From: Sharpea porci
GTDB lineage: Bacteria; Bacillota_I; Bacilli_A; Erysipelotrichales; Coprobacillaceae
Direction of reading: 5' to 3'
Assembly (NCBI RefSeq): GCF_009695655.1
Contig: NZ_VUNM01000024.1
Location: 1 to 41,440 of the forward strand
DNA length: 41,440 nt
Made by a program: the position numbers and the translations under genes. Below are positions 4,981 through 20,605 of the stretch, piece after piece (position 1 is the first letter of the stretch; each line of letters starts with the position of its first letter). Under the pieces are notes generated by a model. That model did not search any database. It was not told where the DNA came from and worked only from the letters and a program-made list of their open reading frames with translations.

Positions 4981-6516
4981 TTATTCATCATCGACAACAT
5001 CATTGTTGTAGTTTTCAAGATCAGTAATAAGATTCTTATATACTGAATCGATGGATTCACTAAAGGCTGCATCCTTCATATTATTTTTGAGGGCACGACT
5101 AGATTTCATTGTATCCTGCAAAGTACCTGCACCACCAATACAGCCACCTGGACAAGCCATCCCTTCCAACAAGTAACCATCATATTTACCACGTGTCGCA
5201 TCACGCATCATACGTTTACATTCAGCCAAGCCTTCTGCTTTAACGACTTTCACTTCACGTTCTGGATCAAGATGCTTTACGGCATTGACAACAGCCTGGG
5301 CAACCCCACCGCTACCGGCAAAGCCACGACCATCGCTTGAGCCTTGGACAAGCTTGAAGCCATCTGGGATTTCATCAAAATCAACATCCTTTGCTTCAAA
5401 CATGCCAGCGACTTCTTCAAATGTCAATGTGAAGTCGACATATGATTTAATGGAATTGCGCGCTGCTTCTTTCTTTTTCGCTAAGCATGGACCAATGAAA
5501 CAGATCTTCGCATTAGGTTCATTCTGTTTTAAAAGACGCGCTGTTAAGACCATTGGTGTTAAGGCCATGGAAATGTTTTCGGCATAATCAGGGAAATCCT
5601 GTTTAGCCATCTTAGACCATGCTGGGCAACATGATGTGCCCATGAATTTAAGCTTTGATGGAACTTCATCAATGAAGTCCTGGGCTTCTTCGATTGTACA
5701 TAAGTCAGCACCCATCGCTACTTCAAGAACATCCGTAAAGCCTAAAGCCTGGAAAGCTCCACGCATTTTCTCCGGTGTTAAGTTTGGCCCAAACTGACCA
5801 GCAATTGCTGGTGCAACAATCGCATAGACATTCTCTTTATTTGTGATGGCTTTGATTGTTTGATAAATCTGTCCCTTGTCGACAATAGCCGCAAATGGAC
5901 AGCTTACTAAGCACATCCCACAAGCCACACATTTACTCTGATCAATATCAGCACGACCATATTCATCTTTGCCAATGGCATTGACACCACATGCGGCAAC
6001 ACATGGACGCTCCTGCTTGATGATGGCATTGTATGGACAAGCTTTCATACAAAGTCCACATTTAATACATTTAGACTGATCAATATAAGACTTGCCATCC
6101 ACCATCGAAATAGCCCCTTTAGGACAAACTTCCTGACAGGGATGTTCAAGACATCCCTGACAACAATCTGTGACAATGACACGTTTCTCTGGACATTTGT
6201 GACAGGCAAATTTAATGATATCAATAAGTGGTGGTTCATAGTATTTTTCATCAATCATACTTTCATCCACACCATCACTAATCGATTTATATTCACTAAT
6301 AGGACGTAGTGAGAGTCCCATCGCAACACGTAAACGTTCCGAAACAATCGCTCTTTCGACAAAGATACTATCACGATAGGTTTCTATTTCCCCGGGAATA
6401 ATCTTATAGGGAAGTTCTTCGAGCTTTTCAGGTCCGCCGCCTTCATAAGCTAAACGCGCTATTTCTGTAAAAATCATATGACGAATTTTGGATTTTGGGG
6501 TTGGTACACCTTTCAT
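4981..6516 (-). CDS. hydA: [FeFe] hydrogenase, group B type
   Basis: This 511-residue iron hydrogenase interconverts protons and H2, probably with ferredoxin. The N-terminal ~110 residues are cysteine-rich (FACHKC...DCCQGCLEHPCQEVC). Two [4Fe-4S] ferredoxin motifs follow (CIKCGLCMKACPYNA and CVACGMCLVSCPFAA). The H-cluster motifs are complete: TSCCPAW, GPCLAKK (L2) and EGMACPGGCIGGAG (L3). The GPCLAKK and GGAG variants and the N-terminal pattern are those of group B hydrogenases rather than the classical group A. I prefer the ATG at 6514-6516; a GTG two codons upstream is closer to GGAGG and is the alternative. It is separated from hydE by a terminator and has its own TATAAT, so it is independently transcribed just downstream of the maturation operon it probably depends on. 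Confidence 0.93.
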   Translation of the reverse strand: MKGVPTPKSKIRHMIFTEIARLAYEGGGPEKLEELPYKIIPGEIETYRDSIFVERAIVSERLRVAMGLSLRPISEYKSISDGVDESMIDEKYYEPPLIDIIKFACHKCPEKRVIVTDCCQGCLEHPCQEVCPKGAISMVDGKSYIDQSKCIKCGLCMKACPYNAIIKQERPCVAACGVNAIGKDEYGRADIDQSKCVACGMCLVSCPFAAIVDKGQIYQTIKAITNKENVYAIVAPAIAGQFGPNLTPEKMRGAFQALGFTDVLEVAMGADLCTIEEAQDFIDEVPSKLKFMGTSCCPAWSKMAKQDFPDYAENISMALTPMVLTARLLKQNEPNAKICFIGPCLAKKKEAARNSIKSYVDFTLTFEEVAGMFEAKDVDFDEIPDGFKLVQGSSDGRGFAGSGGVAQAVVNAVKHLDPEREVKVVKAEGLAECKRMMRDATRGKYDGYLLEGMACPGGCIGGAGTLQDTMKSSRALKNNMKDAAFSESIDSVYKNLITDLENYNNDVVDDE

Positions 6517-6564
6517 ACACACATTTCCTCCTCAATTTGTAACCCTTTTCTTTTAGTTAAAGAT

Positions 6565-6638: not shown

Positions 6639-7679
6639 CTAACGATAATCTCCTCGTGCTTCAACAACTTCATAGCCCGTGCGTTTAATTCTTCTTTCCA
6701 TACAGGCATGACATTCAGCCGCTTCCTCACCTGTACAGATCTTGCCATCATAAAGCATATACTTGCTTCTGACACCACGTGGTGACAAATTAGGCATAAC
6801 AACATTAGCTCCGGCAAGAAGTCCCTTTTCTCTGCCTAGAGGATCAATTGTGCCAAGTGCTGTTGTTGCTGGAAGCAGGCAATGGGGTAGCATCAAGCGA
6901 ATGATGCCTAATAAATGCAAGGTATCTTCAAGTGTTCCTCGTGGTTCATCTTTAAATGGTGTATCGGCATGAGGAATAAAGGGACCAATCCCAACCATGT
7001 GGGGATTGAAGTCTTTCATATAGATAAGATCTTCAATAATATGATCATAAGTCTGTCCCGGTGTACCTACCATAATTCCACATCCCACCTGATAACCAAT
7101 ATCCTTTAAATCTTGCAGGCATTGTTTGCGATGGGCAATCGATAATTCTTTAGGATGAAGCTGACGATAGTGCTCAGGATTGCTTGTTTCCTGGCGTAAG
7201 AGATAACGTTCTGCCCCAGCTTCAAAGTATTTGCGGTAGGAGTCCTTCTCTTTTTCGCCAATTGAAAGCGTAATGGCCATATCGGGATGAAGAGCTTTGA
7301 TGGCTTTGACAATCTCACAAATCATCTCATCACTAAACCACATATCTTCGCCACTTTGTAGGACGACTGTACGAAAGCCTAGCTGATAGCCTTTCTCTGC
7401 ACAGGCAACAATATCACCTGGGGTCAAGCGATAACGTTCAGCCTTTAAGTTATCTTTGCGTATCCCACAATAGAAACAATTATTCTTGCAGTAATTGCTG
7501 AACTCAATCAGACCTCGCAAATAAACATCTTTGCCATAAACCTCTTCACGCACGGCACAGGCATTCTTATAAAGATAATCTTCATCTTCCTTCGTCAAAG
7601 AAGTTAATAATTGTTTGTAACCATCATGATCTAAGTGTTGGGATTGTCTTAAGAGATCAATAAGTTCTTTATTATTCAT
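6639..7679 (-). CDS. hydE: [FeFe] hydrogenase H-cluster radical SAM maturase HydE
   Basis: HydE is the radical-SAM enzyme that processes the iron-CO-CN-cysteine synthon on the way to the azadithiolate-bridged diiron unit. The radical-SAM cluster motif is C64-K-N-N-C68-F-Y-C71, inside EFSNYCKNNCFYCGIRKDN. Further family features are VVLQSGED, LRQETSNPEHYRQLHP, GIMVGTPGQT, GIGPFIPH and the C-terminal ANVVMPNLSP. With 346 residues it has HydE length; HydG and ThiH are longer and HydG has an extra C-terminal cluster domain, absent here. I start at the ATG 7677-7679, eight bases after AAGGA, overlapping hydF by 8 bp; a second ATG lies two codons upstream. It is the last gene of the 11-gene operon. 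BioB or PylB are the main alternatives, less likely given hydF next door. Confidence 0.95.
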   Translation of the reverse strand: MNNKELIDLLRQSQHLDHDGYKQLLTSLTKEDEDYLYKNACAVREEVYGKDVYLRGLIEFSNYCKNNCFYCGIRKDNLKAERYRLTPGDIVACAEKGYQLGFRTVVLQSGEDMWFSDEMICEIVKAIKALHPDMAITLSIGEKEKDSYRKYFEAGAERYLLRQETSNPEHYRQLHPKELSIAHRKQCLQDLKDIGYQVGCGIMVGTPGQTYDHIIEDLIYMKDFNPHMVGIGPFIPHADTPFKDEPRGTLEDTLHLLGIIRLMLPHCLLPATTALGTIDPLGREKGLLAGANVVMPNLSPRGVRSKYMLYDGKICTGEEAAECHACMERRIKRTGYEVVEARGDYR

Positions 7680-8859
7680 TGTCATTATCCTTAATAATCT
7701 GCATTGAACGATCAAGAATTCCATTCATATAGGCAATAGCCATACCATAATTGGTGATTGGCACACCTTGTTTAACAGCTTCTTCCATGCGATGAACTAC
7801 TTCTCTTTCGTTCAACATACAGCCACCACAATGAATAATCATTTTATAGGCAGATAAGTCACTTGGGAAGCTAAAGCCTGAACTTGTTTCAATAATGAGA
7901 TCTTTTCCTGTGTAGTTTTTAAGCCAGTTCGGGATTTTCACCGTTCCTATATCCTTGCATGTACGATGATGTGTACAGCCTTCACTAATCAAGACATGGT
8001 CTCCATCCTGAAGCTGATCGATGGACTTAATGCCATGATATGTGACATGAAGAGCCCCTTTATAGCGGGCCATGAGAATGGAAAATGATGTCAATGGGAT
8101 ATCATCTGGGACAACTTTAGATACATAGGCAAAGGCTTGTGAATCTGTAATGACAAGAGCTGGCTTTTCAATTTTCTTTAATGTCTTTTCTAGCTCACTC
8201 TCCCGACAAACAACAGGAATATCACCATCATCAAGTAAATCACGAATAACTTGTTGTTGTGGGAGAATTAAGCGTCCTTTAGGTGCTGAAGCATCAATTG
8301 GAATCACCAATACGACTATTGAACCGGATGGTACTAAGTCATGAGCTAGTGCTCGTTGATCTTTTTCTGGTTTGAGTGAAGCAATTTTATCTTTGAGTTC
8401 CTTGATATGTTCTTTTGTCTTTGAAGAGACATAAATCGTATCCTTTGTTTCTTTGTCAAAATGACTGAGATCGCATTTATTATAGACAACAAGATAAGGA
8501 ATATGGAGACTCTTAATGAGCTCTAAGACCTCCTCATCAACTTCATCCATGCCTTCTTGTCGATCGATCACTAATAAAGCGATATCCGTCTTATGCAGCA
8601 TCTTCTTGGCTTTTTCTACACGTTTTTCACCAAGTTCACCCGTATCATCAAGACCAGCTGTGTCAATAAAGACAACAGGTCCTAAAGGCAAGAGCTCCAT
8701 AGCTTTCATAACAGGATCGGTTGTTGTGCCTTTCATATTGGAGACAATGGCTAAGTCCTGGTTCGTAATGGCATTAATTAGGGATGACTTCCCGGCATTA
8801 CGCTTACCAAAAAGACCAATATGAATACGTTCACTTGAAGGTGTACTATTTAAACTCAT
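7672..8859 (-). CDS. hydF: [FeFe] hydrogenase maturation GTPase/scaffold HydF
   Basis: HydF is the cytoplasmic GTPase and scaffold on which the diiron subcluster is carried before transfer to apo-HydA. Residues 10-170 are an Era/TrmE-like GTPase: GKRNAGKSS (18-26), GTTTDPV, DTAGLDD, NKCD. A dimerisation region follows, then the C-terminal cluster domain with CTHHRTC (295-301) and HCGGC (343-347), the family's [4Fe-4S] ligand pattern. At 395 residues it has normal length. GGGGGG lies seven bases before the ATG. It overlaps the upstream nifK-like 2 gene by 14 bp and hydE by 8 bp. The tight coupling to nitrogenase-like and hyp genes, rather than to hydG, is the notable point. Confidence 0.95.
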   Translation of the reverse strand: MSLNSTPSSERIHIGLFGKRNAGKSSLINAITNQDLAIVSNMKGTTTDPVMKAMELLPLGPVVFIDTAGLDDTGELGEKRVEKAKKMLHKTDIALLVIDRQEGMDEVDEEVLELIKSLHIPYLVVYNKCDLSHFDKETKDTIYVSSKTKEHIKELKDKIASLKPEKDQRALAHDLVPSGSIVVLVIPIDASAPKGRLILPQQQVIRDLLDDGDIPVVCRESELEKTLKKIEKPALVITDSQAFAYVSKVVPDDIPLTSFSILMARYKGALHVTYHGIKSIDQLQDGDHVLISEGCTHHRTCKDIGTVKIPNWLKNYTGKDLIIETSSGFSFPSDLSAYKMIIHCGGCMLNEREVVHRMEEAVKQGVPITNYGMAIAYMNGILDRSMQIIKDNDNE

Positions 8860-9955
8860 CTAAAATCCCCCCTTTTAAGATATTGGGCATGTTTTTAAGA
8901 TAAAGACGTCCACTAAAAGCCAAATGTGGTAGTGCTCTAACAGGTGTTGAAGTAAGAGCTTGATACATTGGATCACCAATAATTGTTTGTGCCTTTCTTA
9001 GTGCCTGTTCGATTTCTTCTTCATCTTTACTCGCAAGATCCCTTGTTCTTATTATACGCTTAGATTCTTCTAAAGGGGTAATCATTTTATACGATGTGTA
9101 TAGAGCATTGCCTAAAGAATGACCAATAATGGCATCACCAATAATGATATGTTCATCACTCACTTCTTTATTAAGAAGAGGATTTTGTGACTTTCCTGTT
9201 GTCATTGCTTCTTCGATAGCTTTAAAGAGTACATTCTTAAAATCACCTATCGGACTCCCTAAGACATAGGGAATATGATATGTTCTTTCAAAGTATTGAG
9301 CTAAGCGCAATCCTGATGAAGATACAACAACATTGACATGGGCTGATGCAGCTCTTTGAAGTTCTTTTAAGCTTGTATCCCTTGCCCAGATAGAGAGCAC
9401 TTCATAATCATGAAAGATGTCTTTAAGAAGAGTTGTTGTCTCACGAGGGGTATAGTCCAAAGGGGTAACACCTAGAATATTGATAGCTTTCTTTGTAGGA
9501 GCATAGTTTTCAAAAGGCAAGCGTGAAGCAAGTGCTTTAAAGGCTAAGGCAATACCATGGGTATAATCATGCATGGCATTAGTGGGAATATAGAAAGCTG
9601 GTATATCAAGAATCTCTTCAAGCTTCTTGCAGATGGCACTAAAGTCTGTCGCATTGAGATAGGGAATGGGTGAGTTAGCTAAGGCAATAAAGTTTGGATG
9701 CTGATCTAAGGCAACCTGGACAATATCATCAATAAATTTAGCATCATTGCCCATAATGGCATCGGATTCCTTTAAGCCAGATATATATATACGTGATGCA
9801 TTCTGATACCAGCGCACTTCATCATGGGTATTGTAGGTCGAATTACATCCACTTGGATCATGAATGACAATAAGCCCTCCTAACTCATAAAGGGCAGAAG
9901 CAACACCGGATATATCCCCTGTATAAACAGGCAAACGGTTATAGACACATCTCAT
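8846..9955 (-). CDS. Nitrogenase component 1-like protein, NifK-like subunit 2
   Basis: About 369 residues of the nitrogenase/BchNB/CfbD oxidoreductase superfamily. It is a clear paralogue of the product of 15772-16731: both share S-x-LYELGGL, a Gly-Cys (C37), DE-x-RW, GL-x(3)-DAI-x-G-x-D, NFIAL or its equivalent, TD-x(3)-IC, PT near residue 140 and ILGVTPLD. Only one cysteine (C37 in HDPSGC) occupies a nitrogenase-type cluster position; the place where NifK has its third cysteine reads ANSPIPYLNATD. It is probably the partner of the preceding nifD-like 2 product and may act as a scaffold (NifN-like) rather than a reductase. I start at the ATG overlapping the upstream stop (ATGA, 9952-9955); a GTG three codons upstream is the alternative. 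It directly precedes hydF with a 14-bp overlap. Confidence 0.82.
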   Translation of the reverse strand: MRCVYNRLPVYTGDISGVASALYELGGLIVIHDPSGCNSTYNTHDEVRWYQNASRIYISGLKESDAIMGNDAKFIDDIVQVALDQHPNFIALANSPIPYLNATDFSAICKKLEEILDIPAFYIPTNAMHDYTHGIALAFKALASRLPFENYAPTKKAINILGVTPLDYTPRETTTLLKDIFHDYEVLSIWARDTSLKELQRAASAHVNVVVSSSGLRLAQYFERTYHIPYVLGSPIGDFKNVLFKAIEEAMTTGKSQNPLLNKEVSDEHIIIGDAIIGHSLGNALYTSYKMITPLEESKRIIRTRDLASKDEEEIEQALRKAQTIIGDPMYQALTSTPVRALPHLAFSGRLYLKNMPNILKGGILDEFK

Positions 9956-11238
9956 AATAAACACTCACATCCTAATCCTTTTTGTGGCACAATGAGGGCA
10001 GGATCTTTTGTAGTATAATACGCTTCTTCAATGGCCTTAAGCATACTTAATAAGCCACGATAGCCAAAGAATCCTCCTCCTTCAATGATATTCACAAAAT
10101 GTTTCGTATTCTCAAAATAGGCAGCTTTAGGACCAATAGCTAAACTCTCCCCCTCACCCATTTCAAAACGCATATTCGCATGAATAGTAGGAATGAGCTC
10201 TAAGTCTGGAAACTGTTTTTGAAGAAAGAGAAAGTCTTCTTTTTCTTCAGGAAAGATGGTATCAAGATAGACACATTTCACATGAAAGCCATGTTCTAAA
10301 AGAACACGGGCAAGATTAAGTGGCCGCGGTGTTGCCACAAAGTCAATCGCAATCACTTTCTCTCCAATGACTTGCTTTAAATGGCTGAAGGCTTCTTCAC
10401 ATGCCTCTCTTCTTTTGTGATGATCAACATGTGAAATATTGAGCTCATCACAAAAACAATCAATTTCATCTTGAATCGACTCATAATCAAAACAAGGAGA
10501 GAGATAGAGATAATGGGCGTTCAATCTTTTTGATAAGGCTTGAATACCATAATCACCAGCTGGATTTGTACAAATATGCATTTTCGCATGACCTAAATTC
10601 AAGAAATCCTGATAGTTCATATCTTGAAGCTGATGTACTTTCATTTGATGATCTGTAGCTATTGCGACAAGATCACTTGTTTCATAAGTATGGGTTACTT
10701 CCAAGCCAAGTAACGCGATTGAATCATCCTGTGCTAAAGGCTGAATACTGTCATACATGACTTTACGTAGTCTTTGATCAGGGGCAAGACCTTCTTTTTG
10801 GGAGAGTGGATCCATATAGGCCTCGACAAAGACAACTGTTGGAAAAGTAGCTCTGAGTTTCTTATAGACATAATTTAAGTCAACCGAAAGAAATTTATGA
10901 AGGCAGACTGGAAAGATGATGGCGACTGGTGGTAAGTGTTGGCGTTTGTTTAAGGCATAGGTGATGGTTTCAATCATCTGATCTTCTAAATGTCCATCAA
11001 AAATATCACGTTCTTCGATCGTAATGCCAATAAAACGATCCATCGCATTCATTTCCGCAGCAGTCATCACAACCCCACGCAAACAATTATCAGCACAGAT
11101 ATAGATCTGTATGCTTTCAGGCACCTGCATACCAATATGAACAATATTCCATGTTTCATGAACAGGCGGATTAAATTCTAAACCAATGGTAAAGGGATTA
11201 GGATATTGTGCCTGAGAAATAGGCAAGGACATTTTCAT
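9952..11238 (-). CDS. Nitrogenase component 1-like protein, NifD-like subunit 2
   Basis: About 428 residues. It is paralogous to the product of 16728-17993: VPESIQIYICADNC aligns with [28 protein letters not shown] aligns with [14 protein letters not shown], and AIGPKAAYFENTKHFVNI...FFGYRG aligns with [18 protein letters not shown]...PYGYQG. It therefore has fewer cluster-type cysteines (about C48, C52, C112) than its paralogue, and the CxxC of the CITC motif is reduced to one Cys. It also has a long unique middle part and a C-terminal GLGCECLL. By analogy with NifE versus NifD it could be a scaffold. I start at the ATG 11236-11238, five bases after AGGGAGAG, rather than at an ATG six codons upstream. 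It follows hypE by 11 bp. The cofactor and substrate are unknown. Confidence 0.8.
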   Translation of the reverse strand: MKMSLPISQAQYPNPFTIGLEFNPPVHETWNIVHIGMQVPESIQIYICADNCLRGVVMTAAEMNAMDRFIGITIEERDIFDGHLEDQMIETITYALNKRQHLPPVAIIFPVCLHKFLSVDLNYVYKKLRATFPTVVFVEAYMDPLSQKEGLAPDQRLRKVMYDSIQPLAQDDSIALLGLEVTHTYETSDLVAIATDHQMKVHQLQDMNYQDFLNLGHAKMHICTNPAGDYGIQALSKRLNAHYLYLSPCFDYESIQDEIDCFCDELNISHVDHHKRREACEEAFSHLKQVIGEKVIAIDFVATPRPLNLARVLLEHGFHVKCVYLDTIFPEEKEDFLFLQKQFPDLELIPTIHANMRFEMGEGESLAIGPKAAYFENTKHFVNIIEGGGFFGYRGLLSMLKAIEEAYYTTKDPALIVPQKGLGCECLL

Positions 11239-11249
11239 ACAATCTCTCC

Positions 11250-12251
11250 CTAACATATTCTAGGCAAGAGTTCGTTGCCCGGTGGAGGCAAGAGTGTCTC
11301 ACTGCCGATTTCTGTAGTGATCGTGACATGACCCGGATGTTCATCAGTGACATAGCCAATCAGTGCAGCCTTTTCTGTATGCTTGCATTGATGGAGAATT
11401 GCCAATGTCTGATCAGCTTTGTCGCCAGGAACGACAATCACCATGCGTCCTTCACAAGCTAAATAGAGAGGATCAAGGCCAAGCATACCTGTGACACCTC
11501 TGACTTCTTTGGCAACAGGAATATTCTTGTTTTCAAGCTTGATTCCAACATTGGCTTCTCTAGCGATTTCATAAAGCACTGTGCCAACACCACCTCTTGT
11601 GGCATCACGAATGACATGGACATCTTTGACTTTTTCTGTCAAGGCATCAACGGCATTCCATAAAGGTGCGCAATCACTGCTCACATTGGCCTCAATACCA
11701 TAATCATCACGCTCTAAAAGTATGCATGTGCCATGTCTGCCAATATCACCAGTGACAATAATCGCATCACCAGCCTTCGCATAAGCGCCTGATGTCTTAA
11801 TGCCTTCCTTAATAGCCCCAACACCGGTTGTTGTAATAAAGACCTGGTCAACCTGGCCTTTTCCTGCTACCTTTGTATCTCCTGCTACAATCTTGACACC
11901 AACTTCTTTCGCACACTTTTCCATTGAAGCCACAATCTCTTCAAGTTTGTTCATATCAAAGCCCTCTTCAATCACAAAGGCACATGTCATATAGAGTGGC
12001 TTAGCGCCCATGCAGGCTAAGTCATTGACTGTACCACAGATGGAAAGCTTGCCAATATTTCCCCCATTAAAGAATGGTGGAGAAACAATAAATCCATCCG
12101 TACTCATTGCCAATGTTGTTTGTGGATTGGGCAATACGGATGCATCATCCGCTGTAAAATATTCATTATTGAGATGATGCTTAAAAACCTTATCAATAAG
12201 TTCAGCTGTCGCCTGACCTCCTGAACCATGTGCTAATGTTACTTTTTCCAT
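11250..12251 (-). CDS. hypE: Hydrogenase maturation protein HypE (carbamoyl dehydratase)
   Basis: HypE receives a carbamoyl group from HypF on its C-terminal cysteine and dehydrates it with ATP to a thiocyanate, the source of the CN ligands. The 333-residue protein shows the PurM/SelD-like fold motifs (LAHGSGGQAT, FTADDASVLP, AMSTDGFIVSPPFF, GTVNDLACMGAKPLYM, VAGDTKVAGKG, RDATRGGVGTVL) and ends in the essential PRIC tail, so it should be active. The true start is the ATG 12249-12251, nine bases after GGAGG, overlapping hypD by 13 bp; the longer frame has no such site. Its presence without HypA, HypB or any [NiFe] hydrogenase gene here suggests that the cyanide is used for an iron-only cofactor. 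Confidence 0.96.
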   Translation of the reverse strand: MEKVTLAHGSGGQATAELIDKVFKHHLNNEYFTADDASVLPNPQTTLAMSTDGFIVSPPFFNGGNIGKLSICGTVNDLACMGAKPLYMTCAFVIEEGFDMNKLEEIVASMEKCAKEVGVKIVAGDTKVAGKGQVDQVFITTTGVGAIKEGIKTSGAYAKAGDAIIVTGDIGRHGTCILLERDDYGIEANVSSDCAPLWNAVDALTEKVKDVHVIRDATRGGVGTVLYEIAREANVGIKLENKNIPVAKEVRGVTGMLGLDPLYLACEGRMVIVVPGDKADQTLAILHQCKHTEKAALIGYVTDEHPGHVTITTEIGSETLLPPPGNELLPRIC

Positions 12252-13288
12252 TCCTTTAATCCTCCATAGAGATAATATGCCGAACAAGTGCCTTCGCTAG
12301 AAACCATGCAAGCACCGATCGGATGATCCGGTGTACAGCCCTTACCAAAGACTGGACAATCATATGGCTTACATGCCCCACGTAGTACCTCACCACAACG
12401 ACAGGCTGGATTGTCCTTTCCTTTAATGACAGGTAGATCATAAACTTTACGTGCATCGTAAGCTTTGTAGGCTTCTTTAAGCTGTAAGCCGGAATGGGCA
12501 ATCTTGCCAATCCCACGCCATGAAGCATCACATGGTTCCATATAAGTTTTAATAATATCTTGAGCTTTTTTTGAGCCTTCGCTTTTGACAACACGAGGAT
12601 AGGCATTCACAAAGAACGGTTTTCCCTGCTGGACTTTTTTGACAATGATGGCAATCGCTGTAAGTAATTCACTAGCTGTAAAGCCTGCCACGACACCGCT
12701 CACACCATCCTTGTCTCTAAGCTCTTCACAGATCTTTGTGCCAATAATCGCATGAACATGACCAGGATAGAGAAAGGCATCACAGGAATCTTTCATTGCT
12801 TCATAAGCCATCGGCATCGTCTTATTGGCTGTCAATAATGAGAAATTGGTGAGATTTTTTGCTTCCTTGATAGTTAGCACATCACTTGGAGTTGTTGTTT
12901 CAAAGCCAATGGATAAGAAAACAACCTGTTCATCCTGATGCTTTTTCGCATATTCAACCCCGTCAAGAGGTGAGTAGACAACCTTGACCTTAGCGCCTCT
13001 AGCTCGAGCCTGAGCTAATGAAAGTTTTGTCCCTGGTACACGTACTAAATCACCAAATGTCGTAATCGTACAGCCCTTCTCAAGTGCCAACATCACCGCT
13101 TCATCAATAAAATCAATGGGTGTCACACAAACAGGACAGCCTGGACCAGAAATAAGATCAATGGTATCAGGAAGAATGTTGCGAATACCAAGCTTAAAGA
13201 TTTCATGTGTATGTGTCCCACATACTTCCATAATACGTATTTGAGATCCCTGATAGCTTTGAATAATCTCTAATGCTTCCTTATTCAC
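12239..13288 (-). CDS. hypD: Hydrogenase maturation protein HypD
   Basis: HypD, with HypC, holds the iron atom on which the Fe(CN)2CO group is assembled. The 349-residue protein contains the family's key motifs in order: MEVCGTHTH (C23), GPGCPVC (C51, C54), GFETTTP, YPGHVHAIIG, GVVAGFT and the C-terminal [4Fe-4S] region CRCGEVLRG...C...C...GACMVSSEGTCSAYY. All catalytic and cluster cysteines appear intact. It overlaps hypC by 8 bp and hypE by 13 bp, so the three are made together. Nothing suggests decay. Confidence 0.97.
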   Translation of the reverse strand: MNKEALEIIQSYQGSQIRIMEVCGTHTHEIFKLGIRNILPDTIDLISGPGCPVCVTPIDFIDEAVMLALEKGCTITTFGDLVRVPGTKLSLAQARARGAKVKVVYSPLDGVEYAKKHQDEQVVFLSIGFETTTPSDVLTIKEAKNLTNFSLLTANKTMPMAYEAMKDSCDAFLYPGHVHAIIGTKICEELRDKDGVSGVVAGFTASELLTAIAIIVKKVQQGKPFFVNAYPRVVKSEGSKKAQDIIKTYMEPCDASWRGIGKIAHSGLQLKEAYKAYDARKVYDLPVIKGKDNPACRCGEVLRGACKPYDCPVFGKGCTPDHPIGACMVSSEGTCSAYYLYGGLKEWKK

Positions 13289-13496
13289 CTAACAGTTCCT
13301 CCATTAAATTCTTTGATTCATTTTCGTCATCATCAGTAATCTTGGCAATCGCTGCTCCTGCATGCACCATGACATAATCACCTGGCTTTAAATCATCCAA
13401 AAGTTCGGCTGAAACAGAACGTTTTGCCCCTGTTGCATCAACAATCGCAACATCACCTTTCATCTGAATAACTTTTGCGCTAATACCTACACACAT
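13281..13496 (-). CDS. hypC: Hydrogenase maturation chaperone HypC/HybG
   Basis: This 71-residue small chaperone forms the Fe(CN)2CO-carrying complex with HypD. The N-terminal Cys2 (MCVGISAKVI) needed for iron binding is present, as is the OB-fold sequence GDYVMVHAGAAIAKI; the acidic tail (DDDENESKNLMEELLGE) is normal. In known systems HypC then docks on the [NiFe] large subunit. None is in this window, so what it delivers iron to is the open question; a nitrogenase-like protein or HydF are candidates by proximity. It lies 5 bp after hypF and overlaps hypD. Confidence 0.95.
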   Translation of the reverse strand: MCVGISAKVIQMKGDVAIVDATGAKRSVSAELLDDLKPGDYVMVHAGAAIAKITDDDENESKNLMEELLGE

Positions 13497-13501
13497 ATTG
13501 A

Positions 13502-15775
13502 TTACCTCTTTTCTTTTTCAAAAAGACGACTCGCATAGAGAGCCTGTCCCACACATAGACCACCATCATTAGGTGGAATCAAGTGATGTCTGATCACTTG
13601 GAGATTTTTTTCTTTTAAGCCTTTTTCACATAGCTCTAGTAATAATGTATTTTGGAAAACACCGCCACTTAAAGCTACTGTCTCAATTCCAGTTTCTTGA
13701 TGTACTCTACTCACACTCTCAACAATCATATGGGCAAGTTCTTGATGAAAATAATAAGCAAGATCAGCGACATTTTCATGACGCAGTCTTCTTTCCACAA
13801 TATCTTTGACAAGCTGATTAGTTGGAAGGATGTTTGATTGTGAAGATGTCCAGTTCTTTGTCTTGATGACATGCTGAGCTTTAGCAGCTTCATATTGTAA
13901 TCGTGTCGCTGCTTCACCTTCAAAAGAAGATGTGAGTGTTAAGTTCAAAATAGCACTAACCCCATCAAATAAACGACCAGCACTTGTCGATTTGATGGCA
14001 TTTAATTGTTTATCATGCATGACTTTTAAGACATGGGCATTTTGTTTGTCACAAAGGGCTAACTGGGCAATCACATCTTCGCCATCCTCAAAGAGATCAT
14101 AGATCATTGAAGCGGCAATACGCCATCCTTCCTTAGCAGACAAGTCACCACCAATCTGCAAGAAAGGCGCAATACTTGCCTCACGCTTAAACCCGTCCAA
14201 GTCACAGACAAGAATCTCTCCACCCCATATCGAACCATCTAGCCCATAACCTGTTCCATCAAAGGACACACCAATAACTTGATCATGCCAGTCATTTTCC
14301 GCCATGCAGGAAAGAATATGAGCATAATGATGTTGAATGCCCACACTTCTGATACCCATCTCTTTAGCAACCATGGTCGCATTATAGCGGGGATGAAGGT
14401 CATGACAGACAATTTGTGGCTCCACTTCTAAAAGCGAAGACATCAGCTTCAATGATTCCTTGAGTGCTTCAACACTACGAATATCCCCTAAATCACCAAT
14501 ATAGGCTGAAGGATAGAATAAGTTATCACGACCAATACAGAATGTATTCTTCAACTCCCCACCAATCCCAATCACATGTCCCTGATAGGGATGTGTTGTC
14601 ATAATCGGTAAAGGGGCATATCCCCTTGAACGCCTGATCATATAAGGCTCGCCTTGATAGAAATCCACAACACTATCATCACAACGTACACGTATTTTAC
14701 GATTATGGGAGAGAATGGCATCACATAGCCCAACAAGTTCTTTACGGGCACCTTCTTCATCACGGGTAATGGGTGCTCCTGAATCGTTAGCACTTGTCAT
14801 CACTAAGACATCGGGCATCTTTATGCCATCATCATAATCAAAAAGCAACATCTGTAATGGCGCATAAGGTAACATGATGCCAATCTTAGGATTATCCGGC
14901 GCAACACTATTGGCAATATGGCCCGCTTTTTTAGGCAGGAGAATGATGGGCTTCTGATGTCCTGTCAGTAAATCTCTCACTATTTCATTTTCCACCATGC
15001 ATTCACGTTCTACGACAGCCATATCTTTAGCCATGACCGCGAAGGGCTTGAAAGGACGATGCTTGCGCTCACGCAATCTTCTGACAGCTTCTTCATTTGT
15101 CGCATCAACCGCAAGATGATAACCACCAATACCTTTCACAGCCACAATCTTGCCATCATGTAACAATTGTCGTACACGACTGATGGCTTCATGGCCCTTG
15201 ATATCTTCATCTAGTAAATAGACTTCAGGCCCGCAATCATTGCAGCAGACTGGCTGGGCATCATAACGTCGGCTTACAGGATCATGATATTCCTTTTCAC
15301 AAGCTGGACACATTGGAAATTCTTTCATGCTGGTACGTTCTCGATCATAGGGCAAGCCTTCAAGAATCGTTAAACGAGGACCGCATGATGTACAGTTAAT
15401 GAAGGGATGAAGATAACGACGATTACTTGGATCATAGAGTTCCTTTCGGCAAGTTTCACATGTGGCAATATCGGGAGAGATGAAGATTTCTCCCTTGGTC
15501 TTTTCACTTTGGATAATTTGAAAGTCTTCGAAGATTGGGGCAATGACTTTCTGACTTGTGATTTTGAGAATTGTTGAACGCTGGGGAGGCTTTTTTTCTA
15601 GAAGTTCCTTGAAATGAGCAACCTGTTCTTCACTCCCCTGAGCATAGATTTCAACATAGGGGCCTTTATTCGATACTGTGCCTTTGATTTGACACGTTGA
15701 AGCATGTCTGGCAACAGTTGGACGAAAGCCAACACCCTGAACAATGCCAAAGACTCGTAAACATTCTGTTGTCAT
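13502..15775 (-). CDS. hypF: Carbamoyltransferase HypF
   Basis: HypF uses carbamoyl phosphate and ATP to carbamoylate HypE, the first step of cyanide-ligand synthesis. All four modules are visible in 757 residues: an acylphosphatase domain (VFGIVQGVGFRPTVARHA, 1-90), two zinc-finger pairs (CETCRKEL...CTSCGPRL and CPACEKEY...CCNDCGPEV, ~105-185), a YrdC-like nucleotide domain (KGIGGYHLAVDATNEEAV, ~200-390) and a Kae1-like carbamoyltransferase domain (QHHYAHILSCMAEN, GVSFDGTGYG, LSGGVFQN). The length is normal. It shares an ATGA overlap with the upstream nifK-like 1 gene, tying hyp and nif-like translation together. Confidence 0.97.
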   Translation of the reverse strand: MTTECLRVFGIVQGVGFRPTVARHASTCQIKGTVSNKGPYVEIYAQGSEEQVAHFKELLEKKPPQRSTILKITSQKVIAPIFEDFQIIQSEKTKGEIFISPDIATCETCRKELYDPSNRRYLHPFINCTSCGPRLTILEGLPYDRERTSMKEFPMCPACEKEYHDPVSRRYDAQPVCCNDCGPEVYLLDEDIKGHEAISRVRQLLHDGKIVAVKGIGGYHLAVDATNEEAVRRLRERKHRPFKPFAVMAKDMAVVERECMVENEIVRDLLTGHQKPIILLPKKAGHIANSVAPDNPKIGIMLPYAPLQMLLFDYDDGIKMPDVLVMTSANDSGAPITRDEEGARKELVGLCDAILSHNRKIRVRCDDSVVDFYQGEPYMIRRSRGYAPLPIMTTHPYQGHVIGIGGELKNTFCIGRDNLFYPSAYIGDLGDIRSVEALKESLKLMSSLLEVEPQIVCHDLHPRYNATMVAKEMGIRSVGIQHHYAHILSCMAENDWHDQVIGVSFDGTGYGLDGSIWGGEILVCDLDGFKREASIAPFLQIGGDLSAKEGWRIAASMIYDLFEDGEDVIAQLALCDKQNAHVLKVMHDKQLNAIKSTSAGRLFDGVSAILNLTLTSSFEGEAATRLQYEAAKAQHVIKTKNWTSSQSNILPTNQLVKDIVERRLRHENVADLAYYFHQELAHMIVESVSRVHQETGIETVALSGGVFQNTLLLELCEKGLKEKNLQVIRHHLIPPNDGGLCVGQALYASRLFEKEKR

Positions 15776-16731
15776 GAAAAATCACGCCTTCCTGATACCG
15801 CAAAATGAGTCATTTCAAGATATTGCCCGTGGTAGTCTTGAAGCATGTCCTTGAAAACAGGATCACCAATAATCAAATCATAATCATTCTTTTTTACAAG
15901 TTCAATCAAATCGTCTTCCTCAATAAGATGGACATCACCCTTTTCTCTTAAGGTTGGCTTCATCATAAAGAATGAAGCAATATCAAAAGGAATAGAGAGC
16001 TGTTGTCTTAGTGTATGACCAATAACCTGCTGGCCAATAAAAAGAATATGATGTGCATCATGAATATCAATAGACAATCCAGGAATACCAACTTCATAAT
16101 CAATATGATAACGACGCTGTAGTCGTTTGGCGACTTTCAAGGCAGCTGGTGTTGCTACATAAAGCTTTTTTAATGAACCAACAGTATCAAAATCTTCAAA
16201 CTGATTGAAGGTAGGCATAGAGAATGTTTGTGAAAAATCTAAAGGAGTAACTCCAAGAATTGCTTCTGTCTGCTTTGTCGGTTTATTATTCGCAAATTTA
16301 TCGAATAAAGCCAAGTAAGCCATCTCCATGCCTTCATCATATAAGCCTACGCCCGTTGTCGGAACATAGATGACAGGTTTATGTATTTTCTTCTCAAGAA
16401 TATGACAAATTCCCTGATAGTCGGTTGCGATGACCGCAGGTACCGGTGTTCCCACTAAGGCAATAAAGTTAGCCGAAAATTCATCACTTATATCAACAAT
16501 CTTCTCAATCAAAGCATCATCCCTGCCAAGAATCGCATCCATATCACGTAGTCCTGCCGAGAAGATGGCTGAACGTTGATCGAACCAACGTGGCTCATCA
16601 AACCCGCAGACATTACCTGTACAGCCACCAGCATCAATAATAATCGTCAGACCACCAAGCTCATAAAGCACACTGACAGCACCTGATTGGTCGGGGGCAA
16701 AGGGAGTCAAATATTTTCTAAGTCCTTTCAT
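15772..16731 (-). CDS. Nitrogenase component 1-like protein, NifK-like subunit 1
   Basis: About 319 residues of the nitrogenase component 1 / protochlorophyllide reductase superfamily, shorter than NifK (~500). The N-terminus PFAPDQSGAVSVLYELGG is a superfamily signature. The cluster-type cysteine is C37 in DAGGC, with C42 close by (TGNVCGFDEPRW). The site of the third NifK cysteine reads GTPVPAVIATD, so it has no Cys there. It is paralogous to 8846-9955. By gene order its partners are the nifD-like 1 and nifH-like products, making a three-part reductase like BchLNB or CfbCD. I start at the ATG 16729-16731, six bases after TTGGAGG and overlapping the previous stop (ATGA); the longer frame lacks a ribosome site. 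The substrate is unknown. Confidence 0.85.
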   Translation of the reverse strand: MKGLRKYLTPFAPDQSGAVSVLYELGGLTIIIDAGGCTGNVCGFDEPRWFDQRSAIFSAGLRDMDAILGRDDALIEKIVDISDEFSANFIALVGTPVPAVIATDYQGICHILEKKIHKPVIYVPTTGVGLYDEGMEMAYLALFDKFANNKPTKQTEAILGVTPLDFSQTFSMPTFNQFEDFDTVGSLKKLYVATPAALKVAKRLQRRYHIDYEVGIPGLSIDIHDAHHILFIGQQVIGHTLRQQLSIPFDIASFFMMKPTLREKGDVHLIEEDDLIELVKKNDYDLIIGDPVFKDMLQDYHGQYLEMTHFAVSGRRDFS

Positions 16732-17993
16732 AGTACGCCTCCAATCTTTGTACATAGGTCAATTACACCTTGATAGCCATAGGGCTGAAGATCTTCGTTG
16801 AAGAAGACATGCTTGGCATGAGGATGGTAGTAAGCTGCATCTTTGCCTAATGTGATATCAACAGTGATATCGGACATATCATAATAAAGCATGCTTGGCT
16901 CATTATTGCAGTAGATTCTTGTATCCGGCGAGATCTTCGCAATCTCTTTCATATAATAGGTTGCATGTGTGCCATATGTGGCATATATAGCTGAAACATG
17001 GAATCCTTGTTTCAACAAAGCATAAGCAAGTTCAAAGCTATCGGCATTAAGGGTTTCACCAATCGCAAAATGTAATGTATGAGGTAAGCTATTATAGGCT
17101 TGAAGGGCATTTTGGTAATCCGGCTGGTCATCGATTTCTTTTTGAAAGACCTTGAAGAAAGCTTGATATTGTCGGTGGATGCTTTCTAGATCATAGAAGC
17201 GTGAGAGTTCAATAGAGCCAATGCCTAAACGTTCTTCTAAATCACTTGCCGCGGCGCGTGCTTCAGGATGAAGAATGAGATTGAAATTGGCAGCAGCCAT
17301 TTCTTCAAATTCTTCATAATATTGCATTCTCGAAATTTCATTAATTTTTGTCAGACCGAGTTGTCTTAAATAGCGATAAAGCTCACTTTGATCATTTAAT
17401 GGCGCAAAGAAGCCTAGTAAATTCACATGACGTGCATAGCGCTTTTTCTTTTCTAATAAAGAATAGATGGACTCTCTGACATGAACCATTGGTGGTTTTC
17501 GACCTTCTCTTGTCAAAGCATACATATAACAAGGCTTGACTTTCACGCCAGGTACCTGTTCTTCACATTTTCGGCATACTCTTTCCATATCCGTTCCTAG
17601 AAGCGCATCAACACAGGTAATACAAATCATCACAACTTTAGGCTTGACTGCAAGACTTTCAACAACTTCCTTGACAGCCTGGGGAATATGGGCAAGATGC
17701 CGTCCTGTGACGATATCCGTTTCATCCATCAGATAATAGAAATAGCGATGTTGATAATGATCATTTGTCGTAATAGCGGACGTATTGCGCCCACAGCATC
17801 CTGGGGAAACAATCAGCATCACACTTTCAGGAACACTCAGTCCTGCACGCTTGACACCAAAGCCCTGGGCACCTGGGGAATTATAGGCTAATGTGGCTGG
17901 TGAGGAATAGATAAGATGATGATTGGTTTGGAAGATTTCTGGGATATCTTGTCTATCCGCAAGCTCACTGGCTTTAAAATATTTAGCTTTCAT
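16728..17993 (-). CDS. Nitrogenase component 1-like protein, NifD-like subunit 1
   Basis: 421 residues with nitrogenase component 1 features: [18 protein letters not shown] (C66, C67), corresponding to the first P-cluster region of NifD, and [16 protein letters not shown] (C124, C127), corresponding to the C...GDD region. Further cysteines follow at C140, C143 and C155. The NifD FeMo-cofactor surroundings are not convincingly present, so nitrogen fixation is not expected; the C-terminal [13 protein letters not shown] might hold cofactor ligands. It overlaps the nifH-like gene by 11 bp and the nifK-like gene by 4 bp. I infer an ATP-driven reductase together with those two. Its job may be to make or reduce an iron-based cofactor, given hyp and hydEF in the same operon. 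Confidence 0.85.
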
Positions 17994-18735
17994 CTTCCAA
18001 CAACTTCTTTGCCAGTTCTAGAAATTTCTGACTCACTTCAAGATTGATATCCCCTTCAATCGTTGTCATGCCCATTTCTTCATAACGATTGATATCATTA
18101 CTGCGTGGAATGTCCCCAATAATCTTTAAATCATGTTCTTTCGCAAAAGCTTCCACCTTTTCTGTTTCATTTTCGACATTACGATGATTCAACAAGATAC
18201 CCTTAACCTGCGCATAGCCTCGATCAGCAAAATTCTTGACCGCACTTTGGATATTATTAGCGGCATAAAGAGCCATCTTTTCGCCACTAGTAACAATGAT
18301 GACATCTTTCGCATAACCTTCTCTAATAGGTGCCGCAAAACCACCACAGACCACATCACCCAAGACATCATACATCACCACATCAGGTTGATATTCTTCA
18401 AACAAATCCAAGTCTTCCAACAAATTAAAAGTGGCAATAATGCCCCTTCCAGCACAACCAAGTCCTGGTGTTGGTCCTCCTGTTTCAATACATAAAATAT
18501 TGCCAAATCCCACTTTAGAGATTTCTTCAATCGATTGTGGTTCCTGATCTTCACGCAAATATTCCATAACGGGCTTTAATGGCTCGCCATGAAGCAGACT
18601 GATGGTCGAATCAGCTTTAGGATCACAGCCAATCTGAATCACTCTTTTGCCCAGTGTTGCGAATGCGGCAGACAAGTGACTTGTCATGGTTGATTTACCG
18701 ATACCACCTTTGCCATAAATAGCGATTTTCAGCAT
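17983..18735 (-). CDS. Nitrogenase iron protein-like ATPase (NifH/BchL/CfbC family)
   Basis: A 250-residue dimeric [4Fe-4S] ATPase that would donate electrons to a NifDK-like partner. It has the P-loop GKGGIGKST (8-16), CDPKADST, the two cluster cysteines C94 ([14 protein letters not shown]) and C130 ([19 protein letters not shown]), and [14 protein letters not shown]. All residues needed for ATP-coupled electron transfer are present. At 250 residues it is shorter than true NifH (~290), as in nitrogenase-like proteins. It is the first gene of the 11-gene operon, with a strong ribosome site (AAGGAAGGAG) and a TATAAT upstream. Nitrogenase iron proteins can also reduce CO2 to CO in vitro, a possible source of CO ligands here; that is speculation. 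Confidence 0.93.
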
Positions 18736-18862: not shown

Positions 18863-20605
18863 TTATTTCTCACCAGGCATTTTCCAGGCATGATGATCAG
18901 TATGTAATAAGTGATGGGCTTTTTCACTATTAGGCTGGCCTAAGAATTCTTGATAAACCTCTTTGATGGATGGATTTTCATGGGAGAAACGAATGACATT
19001 CTTGGCATCCTGACGATAGAGGACATCAGCACGTTCTGGTGCTTCAAACTTACCATCATGAATAGGCTGACCGCCACCACCAACACATCCACCAGGGCAA
19101 GCCATAACTTCGACAAAGTCATATTGCACCTTTCCAGCTTTAAGCGCATCAAGCAGTCTTGAGGCATTGCCTAAGCCATTAGCGACAGCTACTTTGACAC
19201 TTATGCCTTCGATATCGAAGATTTCTTCTTTCCAGCCTTCCATGCCACGTACTTCTTTGAAGGCATCAGGATCAGGATTATGACCAGTCGCAAAATGATA
19301 GGCTGTACGTAAAGCAGCTTCCATCACACCACCTGTTGCCCCAAAGATATTACCAGCTCCAGAACCAAGTCCTAAAGGCATATCCAGGGCACGTTCCTTG
19401 ATTTCACTAGGAATGATATAGGCACGGCGAATCATCCGGTTCACTTCTCTTGTCGTTAAGACAACATCAACATCAGGATCACCACAGGCATCATTCATAA
19501 CTGGAATATCACATTCCTGCTTTTTCGCAAGACAAGGCATGATGGAAACACTATAGATATTTTCAGGATCCACCTGCAATAGCTTTGCATAATAAGACTT
19601 CGCAATTGCCCCAAACATCTGCTGCGGTGATTTGGAAGTTGAAAGCTGGTCGACAAATTCTGGATAGTGAGCCTTCACAAAGCGTACCCAGCCAGGACAA
19701 CATGAAGTAAACATTGGGAATTGATGATCAGCAGGATGTTGTAAGTGATCTAAAAATTCACTAGCTTCTTCCATAATCGTCAGATCGGCAGAAAAGTCTG
19801 TATCTAGAATAAAATCAAAGCCAATCATATGCAAGGCTTCAGCTAAGCGTTCCACCGTCGCAACCTCAGGTGATAAACCAAATTCTTCACCCCAGGCTGT
19901 ACGAATAGATGGCGCAATTTGGGCAATAACAACCTTCTTTGGATCATCAATAGCTTCATAAACACGATCTGTGTCATCACGCTCATGTAAAGCATTCACC
20001 GGACAATGGGTAATACACTGACCACATAGTGCACATTTAGAATCTTCAAGCGAATAGACATCACGCACATCTACGGTTGTTCGTGAACCCGTATTGACAA
20101 CATCCCAGATATGAGAATTCTGAATCTTGTCACAAACCTGAATACAACGCATACATTTTATACATTTTCTATAATCACGAATGAGCGGGAAGTTGGGATT
20201 ACCCTTTTGTGCAGGGATGTCTTTTTCATAAGGGCTATCCATAATGCCTAAGTCATTGGCCACTTTCTGAAGTGAACAGTTGCCCGAACGTGTACACATT
20301 GTACAGTTGGCATAATGCTGGGAGAGAATGAGCTGCACATTGACAATACGTGCTTCTCGAACTTTTTTCGAATTCGTCCAGATCACCATGCCTTCATCAA
20401 CAGTATTATTGCAGGCAGTAAAGAGGCGTTCATAGCCTTCTACCTCAACAACACAGACACGGCATGCGCCGATTTCATTAAGCCCCTTCCAATAACAAAG
20501 AGTAGGAATCTGAATTCCTGCCATCTTGGCAGCATCTAAGATTGTCGTTCTTTCTGGCACATGATAACTATGGCCATCAATCCATATTCTTACATTATTT
20601 ACCAT
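18863..20605 (-). CDS. hydA: [FeFe] hydrogenase catalytic subunit, group A (modular)
   Basis: A 580-residue hydrogenase with the modular order of clostridial enzymes. It has an N-terminal [2Fe-2S] domain (C37, C48, C51, C65), a His-ligated [4Fe-4S] cluster (H97, C101, C104, C110), two ferredoxin-type [4Fe-4S] clusters (CIKCMRCIQVC and CALCGQCITHC), and the H-cluster domain with TSCCPGW, MPCLAKK and MACPGGCVGGGGQP. All H-cluster ligands are present. It overlaps the upstream flavoprotein gene by 7 bp, so the two surely form a complex that links H2 to a nicotinamide or flavin pool. A Rex-like site in the operon promoter fits NADH/NAD control. It needs HydE/F-type maturation, encoded next door. 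Confidence 0.96.
   Translation of the reverse strand: MVNNVRIWIDGHSYHVPERTTILDAAKMAGIQIPTLCYWKGLNEIGACRVCVVEVEGYERLFTACNNTVDEGMVIWTNSKKVREARIVNVQLILSQHYANCTMCTRSGNCSLQKVANDLGIMDSPYEKDIPAQKGNPNFPLIRDYRKCIKCMRCIQVCDKIQNSHIWDVVNTGSRTTVDVRDVYSLEDSKCALCGQCITHCPVNALHERDDTDRVYEAIDDPKKVVIAQIAPSIRTAWGEEFGLSPEVATVERLAEALHMIGFDFILDTDFSADLTIMEEASEFLDHLQHPADHQFPMFTSCCPGWVRFVKAHYPEFVDQLSTSKSPQQMFGAIAKSYYAKLLQVDPENIYSVSIMPCLAKKQECDIPVMNDACGDPDVDVVLTTREVNRMIRRAYIIPSEIKERALDMPLGLGSGAGNIFGATGGVMEAALRTAYHFATGHNPDPDAFKEVRGMEGWKEEIFDIEGISVKVAVANGLGNASRLLDALKAGKVQYDFVEVMACPGGCVGGGGQPIHDGKFEAPERADVLYRQDAKNVIRFSHENPSIKEVYQEFLGQPNSEKAHHLLHTDHHAWKMPGEK

Follow-up and report, generated by a model that had tools for sequence, protein, structure and literature searches.

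A Hyp and nitrogenase-like gene module that probably takes the place of HydG beside the [FeFe] hydrogenases of Sharpea porci

The stretch of DNA analysed here, called the window, is 41,440 nucleotides of Sharpea porci (contig NZ_VUNM01000024.1 of assembly GCF_009695655.1), from a genome of 2.5 Mb in 77 contigs that is 99.4% complete. It contains a minus-strand operon in which the genes of a nitrogenase-like (Nif-like) system are joined to those for HypF, HypC, HypD and HypE and for the [FeFe]-hydrogenase maturases HydF and HydE. An earlier note on this DNA had placed an eleven-gene minus-strand set at 6639-18735, and all 11 open reading frames (ORFs) are found there, in the 5'-3' order NifH-like, D1, K1, HypF, HypC, HypD, HypE, D2, K2, HydF, HydE. 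Here and below, family membership was judged by the scores of NCBIfam and Pfam models against their curated cut-offs. The genes of the operon, with lengths in amino acids (aa), are:

17983..18735, minus strand: NifH-like Fe protein (nifH1), 250 aa, with a P-loop and the [4Fe-4S] cysteines C94 and C130; PF00142 (Fer4_NifH) 295 bits.
16728..17993, minus strand: D1, NifD-like component-1 subunit, 421 aa; PF00148 116 bits.
15772..16755, minus strand: K1, NifK-like partner of D1, 327 aa; PF00148 50 bits.
13502..15775, minus strand: HypF, carbamoyltransferase, 757 aa; TIGR00143 761 bits (cut-off 466).
13281..13496, minus strand: HypC, 71 aa, with an N-terminal Cys2; TIGR00074 66 bits (cut-off 48).
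12239..13288, minus strand: HypD, 349 aa, of an operon-specific clade; TIGR00075 392 bits, over cut-off.
11250..12287, minus strand: HypE, 345 aa, with a C-terminal Cys (PRIC); TIGR02124 420 bits, over cut-off.
9952..11256, minus strand: D2, second NifD-like subunit, 434 aa; PF00148 20.2 bits (cut-off 28.6), sub-threshold.
8846..9964, minus strand: K2, second NifK-like subunit, 372 aa; PF00148 84 bits.
7672..8859, minus strand: HydF, H-cluster maturation GTPase/scaffold, 395 aa, with dimer and tetramer domains; TIGR03918 563 bits (cut-off 326).
6639..7724, minus strand: HydE, radical SAM H-cluster maturase, 361 aa as an ORF; TIGR03956 558 bits (cut-off 255).

The true start of HydE may lie 13 or 15 codons further inward, at 7685 or 7679 as judged by eye, in which case most of its overlap with hydF would vanish. 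Pfam finds in HypF an acylphosphatase domain, two zf-HYPF domains, a YrdC domain and a Kae1-like domain. The [FeFe] hydrogenase genes that had been reported on each side of the operon also score over family cut-offs:

18863..20605, minus strand: [FeFe] hydrogenase, group A (A6-like); TIGR02512 481 bits (cut-off 406), NF040763 757 bits, just below 765.
4981..6522, minus strand: [FeFe] hydrogenase, group B; TIGR04105 621 bits (cut-off 450).

In translation the group A enzyme has the H-cluster motifs TSCCP, MPC and MACPGGC and the group B enzyme the motifs TSCCP, GPC and MACPGGC; both are likely clients of the operon. Adjoining the group A gene, at 20599-22431 of the window, is an NAD(P)-binding GltD-like flavoprotein with a NuoF-type 4Fe-4S domain, likely the redox partner of that hydrogenase.

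To our knowledge, all [FeFe] hydrogenases characterised so far rely on HydG as the source of their CO and CN. Tyrosine is the starting material from which HydG forms an Fe(CO)2(CN) synthon that it hands to HydE (PMC11736057, PMC9431212), HypCDEF make Fe(CN)2CO (PMC9431212), and in vitro only ~1% of hydrogenase activity is obtained without HydG (cited in PMC9431212). The operon was said to lack hydG, and the S. porci genome agrees: the HydG model matches HydE alone (79.8 bits, cut-off 312), which leaves no HydG and no ThiH-like protein found in it, and a search of the same genome for [NiFe] large subunits (PF00374) also found none. In a sample of 43 genomes of its family, D1 occurs in 5 (S. porci included), and the cut-offs are exceeded by HydG in 8 and by HydE in 12; the 12 consist of the 8 with HydG and 4 with the operon, with none having both (Fisher p 0.002, a test that here and below ignores relatedness). 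The fifth D1 genome (G020), which has no HydE match over cut-off, is 82% complete and its contig stops inside HypD. HydG over cut-off was found in none of the five D1 genomes, including one that is a single contig and 98% complete (G019), and wherever the contig reaches far enough in this family the operon ends with HydF and HydE. The arrangement hydE-hydG-hydF was seen in 5 of the 8 HydG genomes of the family inspected around hydG, and no Hyp or Nif-like genes were found in these five within 14-20 kb around hydG. One of the 8 hydG genes of the family, at G038:C108:36593-38008 (L015), is broken by six stop codons and is a pseudogene or an assembly error.

The second family examined was represented by 299 genomes sampled from the larger group around Anaerobutyricum hallii, with thresholds of E<1e-170 for D1, E<1e-60 for HydE and the model cut-off for HydG. 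HydG over cut-off is present in 131 of the 299, D1 in 19 and HydE in 161 (160 over cut-off), and eight more genomes have a distant Nif-like protein (1e-53 to 1e-64). The 161 HydE genomes divide into 129 with HydG, 19 with D1, none with both and 13 with neither (p 1.5e-16), HydG being present in 129 of the 142 that are without D1. HydE accompanies D1 in 19/19 genomes, as against 142/280 of the others (p 4.8e-6), and HypD is likewise present in 19/19 operon genomes. In two of the carriers (G281 and G321) D1 and HydE share the first contig, which at 3.19 and 3.37 Mb, respectively, makes up almost the whole genome, and HydG over cut-off was found in neither.

A scan of one genome per species, over 84,980 species, gave 419 places with a D1 relative of any closeness, and the locus counts that follow cover the best 80 of these 419. 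The 80 loci come from Erysipelotrichaceae, Lachnospiraceae, Oscillospiraceae, Megasphaera, Clostridium and Coriobacteria/Atopobiaceae, that is from Bacillota and Actinomycetota, and many of the records are metagenome-assembled genomes (MAGs) from the rumen or ruminant gut. The closest named relative is Sharpea azabuensis DSM 18934 (D1 93% identical), and this strain, Anaerobutyricum hallii DSM 3353, Megasphaera massiliensis NP3 and Clostridium muellerianum P21 (L105) are named isolates that carry the operon. NifH is present in 80/80 loci, and HypF, C, D and E are all present in each of the 64 loci that reach more than 6.5 kb downstream of D1; the occurrence of the same block in 80 loci of two phyla makes chance association untenable. 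The block varies in that D1 and K1 form a single fused ORF of ~800 aa in 21/80 loci (e.g. L045, L047, L048) and a second NifH, of the type called NifH2, is present in at least 22/80. A TM1266-like gene, annotated as a putative iron-only hydrogenase system regulator, occurs in 45/80 loci (among L041-L120), in or near the Hyp/Nif-like operon and often between hypE and nifH2; it was not found in the window. The known set and TM1266 apart, no gene family turns up in more than 6 of the 80 loci. Within the stretches covered HydE is seen in 17/80 loci and HydF in 27/80, and HydG in 0/80. A search of plasmids gave one distant match only (31% identity, Treponema).

The operon was also expected to occur without hydG in other genomes, and HydG over cut-off is found in 0/50 further carriers that were searched whole; the carrier sets overlap, 4 of the 19 of the second family lying within the 50 and 2 of the 50 appearing to be 2 of the S. 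porci family's 5. A ThiH-like match to the HydG model, of 168-207 bits, occurs in 15/50 carriers, and 4 of the 15, which were tested, are ThiH. ThiH was considered as a general substitute for HydG and rejected, being matched in only those 15 carriers and not in S. porci itself.

It is thus highly probable, judging from gene content, that the operon is a HydG-replacing module in which Hyp and Nif-like proteins supply an Fe-CO/CN unit to HydE and HydF in [FeFe]-hydrogenase maturation. Many gut bacteria, S. porci among them, seem to build the Fe-CO/CN core of the H-cluster without HydG, by way of this conserved operon. The earlier note had left it at "replace or supplement". Since the operon occurs with HydE and without HydG in two families, the former is the better supported of the two, and a normal hydG was found neither in the S. 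porci genome nor in the other operon genomes (HydG in 0/5, 0/50 and 0/19 carriers).

Key cysteines are kept in the Hyp proteins of the operon. HypC Cys2 is invariant (69/69 sequences), HypD has C23, C51 and C54 in 68/68 and C311, C318, C327 and C335 in 67/67, in alignment with the cysteines of the solved HypD structure 2z1d, and the C-terminal Cys of HypE is present in 67/67; these conserved cysteines we take to be catalytic and cluster residues. In a tree the operon HypD proteins form one clade, 36 rows against 20 other HypD (approximate likelihood-ratio support, SH-aLRT, 100; branch 1.42). The operon rows were picked by way of D1 and the 20 others are part of the other HypD of the second family, so the tree shows a dedicated lineage and not its full breadth. 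HydE behaves differently. Its radical SAM cysteines C79, C83 and C86, and further C330, C338 and C341, are present in 17/17, and in a tree of 90 rows the operon-type and HydG-type proteins interleave, with 17 changes on the best tree, of which at least 3 are forced by starred branches. A HydE specialised for a new route was looked for and no alignment column was found that separates the operon type from the HydG type; at some columns the two types do show frequency differences greater than the 95% point of the shuffle maximum, a comparison in which relatedness is uncontrolled. The separate HypD clade, together with interleaved HydE that no column divides, makes the module look like a transferable unit that would feed a common HydE.

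An ordinary [NiFe] maturation operon can be set aside, the [NiFe] large subunit being missing from 32/36 carriers, S. porci among them (no PF00374 match; the 36 also take in 18 of the 19 second-family carriers). The four positives are Clostridium muellerianum (G088), whose match spans most of the model, and three genomes matched only at positions 1-70 (G061, G161 and G319); in G161 and G319 a second HypD lies ~2 kb from the PF00374 gene, on a different contig from the operon HypD.

The Nif-like proteins stay under the cut-offs of the named families. The NifH-like protein scores 308 bits with TIGR01287, below the cut-off of 394, and is also under the CfbC, BchL and BchX cut-offs; its C94 and C130 are present in 81/81 sequences and the P-loop is kept. 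PF00148 (Oxidored_nitro) matches D1, K1 and K2, and K1 and K2 were assigned to component 1 by this model only. As the D2 match is sub-threshold, its assignment was settled by predicted structure. The D1 model (mean predicted local distance difference test score, pLDDT, 88.7) is matched best by DPOR, NifEN and nitrogenase chains at Z 21-23, and the D2 model (pLDDT 91.6) by DPOR and vanadium nitrogenase chains at Z 23-24. Among the 50 rows listed, which include DPOR, NifEN, nitrogenases and methylthio-alkane reductase, D1 gives Z 21-23 and D2 Z 20-24, with root-mean-square deviations of 3.5-5.2 over 328-399 residues, and these matches are mostly tied, so that no closest family can be named. D1 and D2 are predicted to have the component-1 fold. 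The best scores with the named families are those to nifE (cut-off 505 bits): 60 for D1, 51 for K2 and 34 for K1, with none for D2. Nitrogen fixation was considered and rejected, the Nif-like proteins lying below every Nif cut-off.

Conserved cysteines are found at D1 C66, C67, C124 and C127 (81/81), with C155 also conserved, at K1 C45 and C50 (56/56), at D2 C58 and C118 (61/61) and C54 (98%), and at K2 C40 (49/49). No cysteine of the window proteins is conserved at more than 90% past C155 in D1 (81 sequences) or past C118 in D2 (61 sequences), in the later part of component 1 where the cysteine ligand of FeMo-cofactor in NifD-type proteins would be expected. DPOR has an interface Fe-S cluster, and conservation that is confined to N-terminal cysteines suggests, by analogy, that D1-K1 and D2-K2 have such a cluster and no FeMo-cofactor ligand.

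How the module might work can be outlined as follows. HypF and HypE would convert carbamoyl phosphate to cyanide and, as happens in [NiFe] maturation, place it on an iron carried by HypC-HypD. D1-K1 and the NifH-like protein would work together with HypCD as a low-potential reductase that is driven by ATP and provides CO, for which CO2 is the most likely source; the Fe proteins of nitrogenases are able to form CO from CO2. Alternatively, the same proteins might change the ligands so that one CN and two CO result. D2-K2 would then receive or reduce the iron unit and give a HydG-like Fe(CO)2(CN) to HydE, after which HydE and HydF would work as usual. The Nif-like steps, the origin of CO and the order of the steps we infer, and it is the replacement alone that rests on data.

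Several observations weigh against replacement of HydG by this module. The H-cluster carries 2 CN and 3 CO and HypCDEF yield Fe(CN)2CO, so that a remodelling step must be assumed. Among the 161 HydE genomes of the second family, 13 have neither HydG nor D1, and the absence of HydG is therefore not unique to carriers. The Fisher tests take no account of relatedness, and a phylogenetic test on independent pairs, in which only 3 contrasts fall on starred branches, is not significant because these are too few; in no random pairing did the operon and HydG move in the same way. Many of the genomes are drafts or MAGs. Finally, 6 of the 13 genomes with neither gene (G209, G225, G266, G315, G316, G370) have NifH2-D2-K2 with no D1 and no HypD, beside genes resembling a FecBCD-type ABC transporter (seen by eye; in G315 the binding protein only), and a seventh genome, G313, has the same NifH2-D2-K2 and transporter set together with HydG.

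In G313 Pfam confirms the transporter genes, and a TM1266-like domain is part of the ATPase. At L145, 7600-8664, one protein joins an ABC transporter ATPase with a domain of the TM1266-like "iron-only hydrogenase system regulator" type. The loci of this Hyp-free variant are L128, L135, L141, L142, L143, L144 and L145, with HydE or HydF adjacent in some and with 6 of the 7 genomes lacking HydG. D2 without D1 also avoids HydG (1/7 against 128/135, p 1.1e-6), and the variant may import iron, or part of a cofactor or precursor, from outside. NifHDK-like sets that are more distantly related, again beside FecBCD-like transporter genes, occur at L138 and L140 and represent an uncharacterised Nif-like family; the genome of L140 (G151), with its Nif-like and transporter genes, has no HydE. 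HydE is also seen without HydG and without any clear Nif-like module in the genomes of L125, L127, L129, L131, L133 and L136, some of which may be incomplete, and 7 of the 161 are left unexplained: G103, G140 (with a distant D2), G178, G219, G233, G272 and G335.

We put forward tentatively, as a proposal that falls somewhat short of an even chance, a picture wider than replacement alone: a widespread second, HydG-independent H-cluster biosynthesis in gut Bacillota and Actinomycetota, in which CN would come from carbamoyl phosphate through HypFCDE, CO from ATP-driven Nif-like reduction of CO2 or of a bound ligand, and a second Nif-like pair would pass the unit to HydE, with HydG replaced repeatedly and the D2-K2/FecBCD variant possibly importing part of the cofactor or iron.

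Another explanation is that the Hyp and Nif-like proteins build some other Fe-CN/CO cofactor, for example on D1-K1 or D2-K2, with HydE and HydF mere neighbours and the H-cluster ligands drawn from an unrecognised source. The presence of two component-1 pairs is in keeping with this, as are the modest counts of HydE and HydF in the stretches covered (just 17/80 and 27/80 loci) and the D2-like Nif and ABC transporter genes of the HydE-less genome at L140. However, an unrelated cofactor would not exclude HydG, and D1 is found with HydE in 19/19 carriers of the second family and 4/5 of the S. porci family and, in these samples, never with HydG; HydF and HydE also end the operon in the latter family and a TM1266-like hydrogenase-system gene recurs, so that we consider this explanation unlikely. 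A modified H-cluster with a different ligand set, made in place of the standard one, would fit with Nif-like proteins that could alter ligands and with the two CN per Fe that Hyp chemistry yields (PMC9431212), but the adjacent hydrogenases retain their H-cluster motifs and the interleaving of HydE types with no separating column suggests the same substrate and product, which makes such a cluster quite improbable. That HydG is present and was missed through assembly gaps or divergence, the operon being an accessory or alternative route under some conditions, is very improbable: many carriers are drafts or MAGs, and 5/8 acetogenic Clostridium are reported to lack a motif-perfect HydG, with imperfect candidates in most (PMC9431212), but HydG is found in 0/50, 0/19 and 0/5 carriers of the overlapping sets against 129/142 HydE genomes without D1, ThiH-like matches occur in only 15/50 with the 4 tested being ThiH, and HydG over cut-off is lacking from the 99.4% complete S. 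porci genome, from the single-contig genome G019 (98% complete) and from G281 and G321, whose first contigs are nearly the whole genome.

A promoter ahead of nifH and a terminator at the operon end had been proposed, and the features read are:

18782-18777, minus strand: TATAAT of a promoter-like extended -10, TGGTATAAT, ahead of nifH, read from the sequence.
6640-6615, minus strand: terminator-like hairpin at the operon end, 11-pair stem.
18854-18826, minus strand: terminator-like hairpin behind the upstream hydA, setting it apart from the operon, 13-pair stem with a T-rich tail.

The TATAAT can be read as proposed, but a -35/-10 scan gave no site there, and promoter-like sites in the region (38 against a shuffled expectation of 35) are near expectation. 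The hairpin at the operon end is likewise present, but terminator-like hairpins number 12 against 9 expected from shuffling, again near expectation.

If HydG is replaced as proposed, a second route would show how carbamoyl phosphate and a simple source of carbon can give rise to precursors of the H-cluster, and it would be new chemistry for nitrogenase-like enzymes; we know of no Nif-like system that serves hydrogenase assembly. The isolates that carry the operon make the idea testable. The rumen and ruminant gut are the source of many carrier MAGs, and H2 formed there feeds methane formation. The module may also explain acetogens and gut bacteria that have [FeFe] hydrogenases, HydE and HydF and no clear HydG, a question left open in PMC9431212: HydG is reported there as undetected in 5/8 acetogenic Clostridium having HydE, HydF and HypCDEF, and motif-imperfect HydG and free CO/CN are offered as explanations, with mechanisms "not yet identified" also wondered about.

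These clostridia share HydE, HydF, HypCDEF and the lack of a clear HydG with the operon genomes; the term "nitrogenase-like" is absent from PMC9431212, and the operon was seen in Clostridium muellerianum P21 and not in the strains of that paper, which lay outside the searches. Compared to HydE-HydG-HydF maturation, the operon has HydE and HydF over their cut-offs and the same client family nearby, but Hyp and Nif-like genes in the place of HydG. Compared to the HypCDEF of [NiFe] maturation, its four Hyp proteins exceed their cut-offs and retain the key cysteines, but its HypD is a separate clade, the [NiFe] large subunit is missing in 32/36 carriers, and neither HypA nor HypB can be present in more than 6/80 loci (the rest of the S. 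porci genome was not searched for these two). With DPOR, CfbCD, NifEN and methylthio-alkane reductase it shares a NifH-like ATPase and a predicted component-1 fold, but it falls below every cut-off of the named Nif-like families (NifEN, DPOR, COR, CfbCD) and has two component-1 pairs together with Hyp and Hyd genes. The earlier note knew of no described system with this gene set, and no description was recognised in the open-licence full-text literature searched, outside of which lie subscription papers and most preprints.

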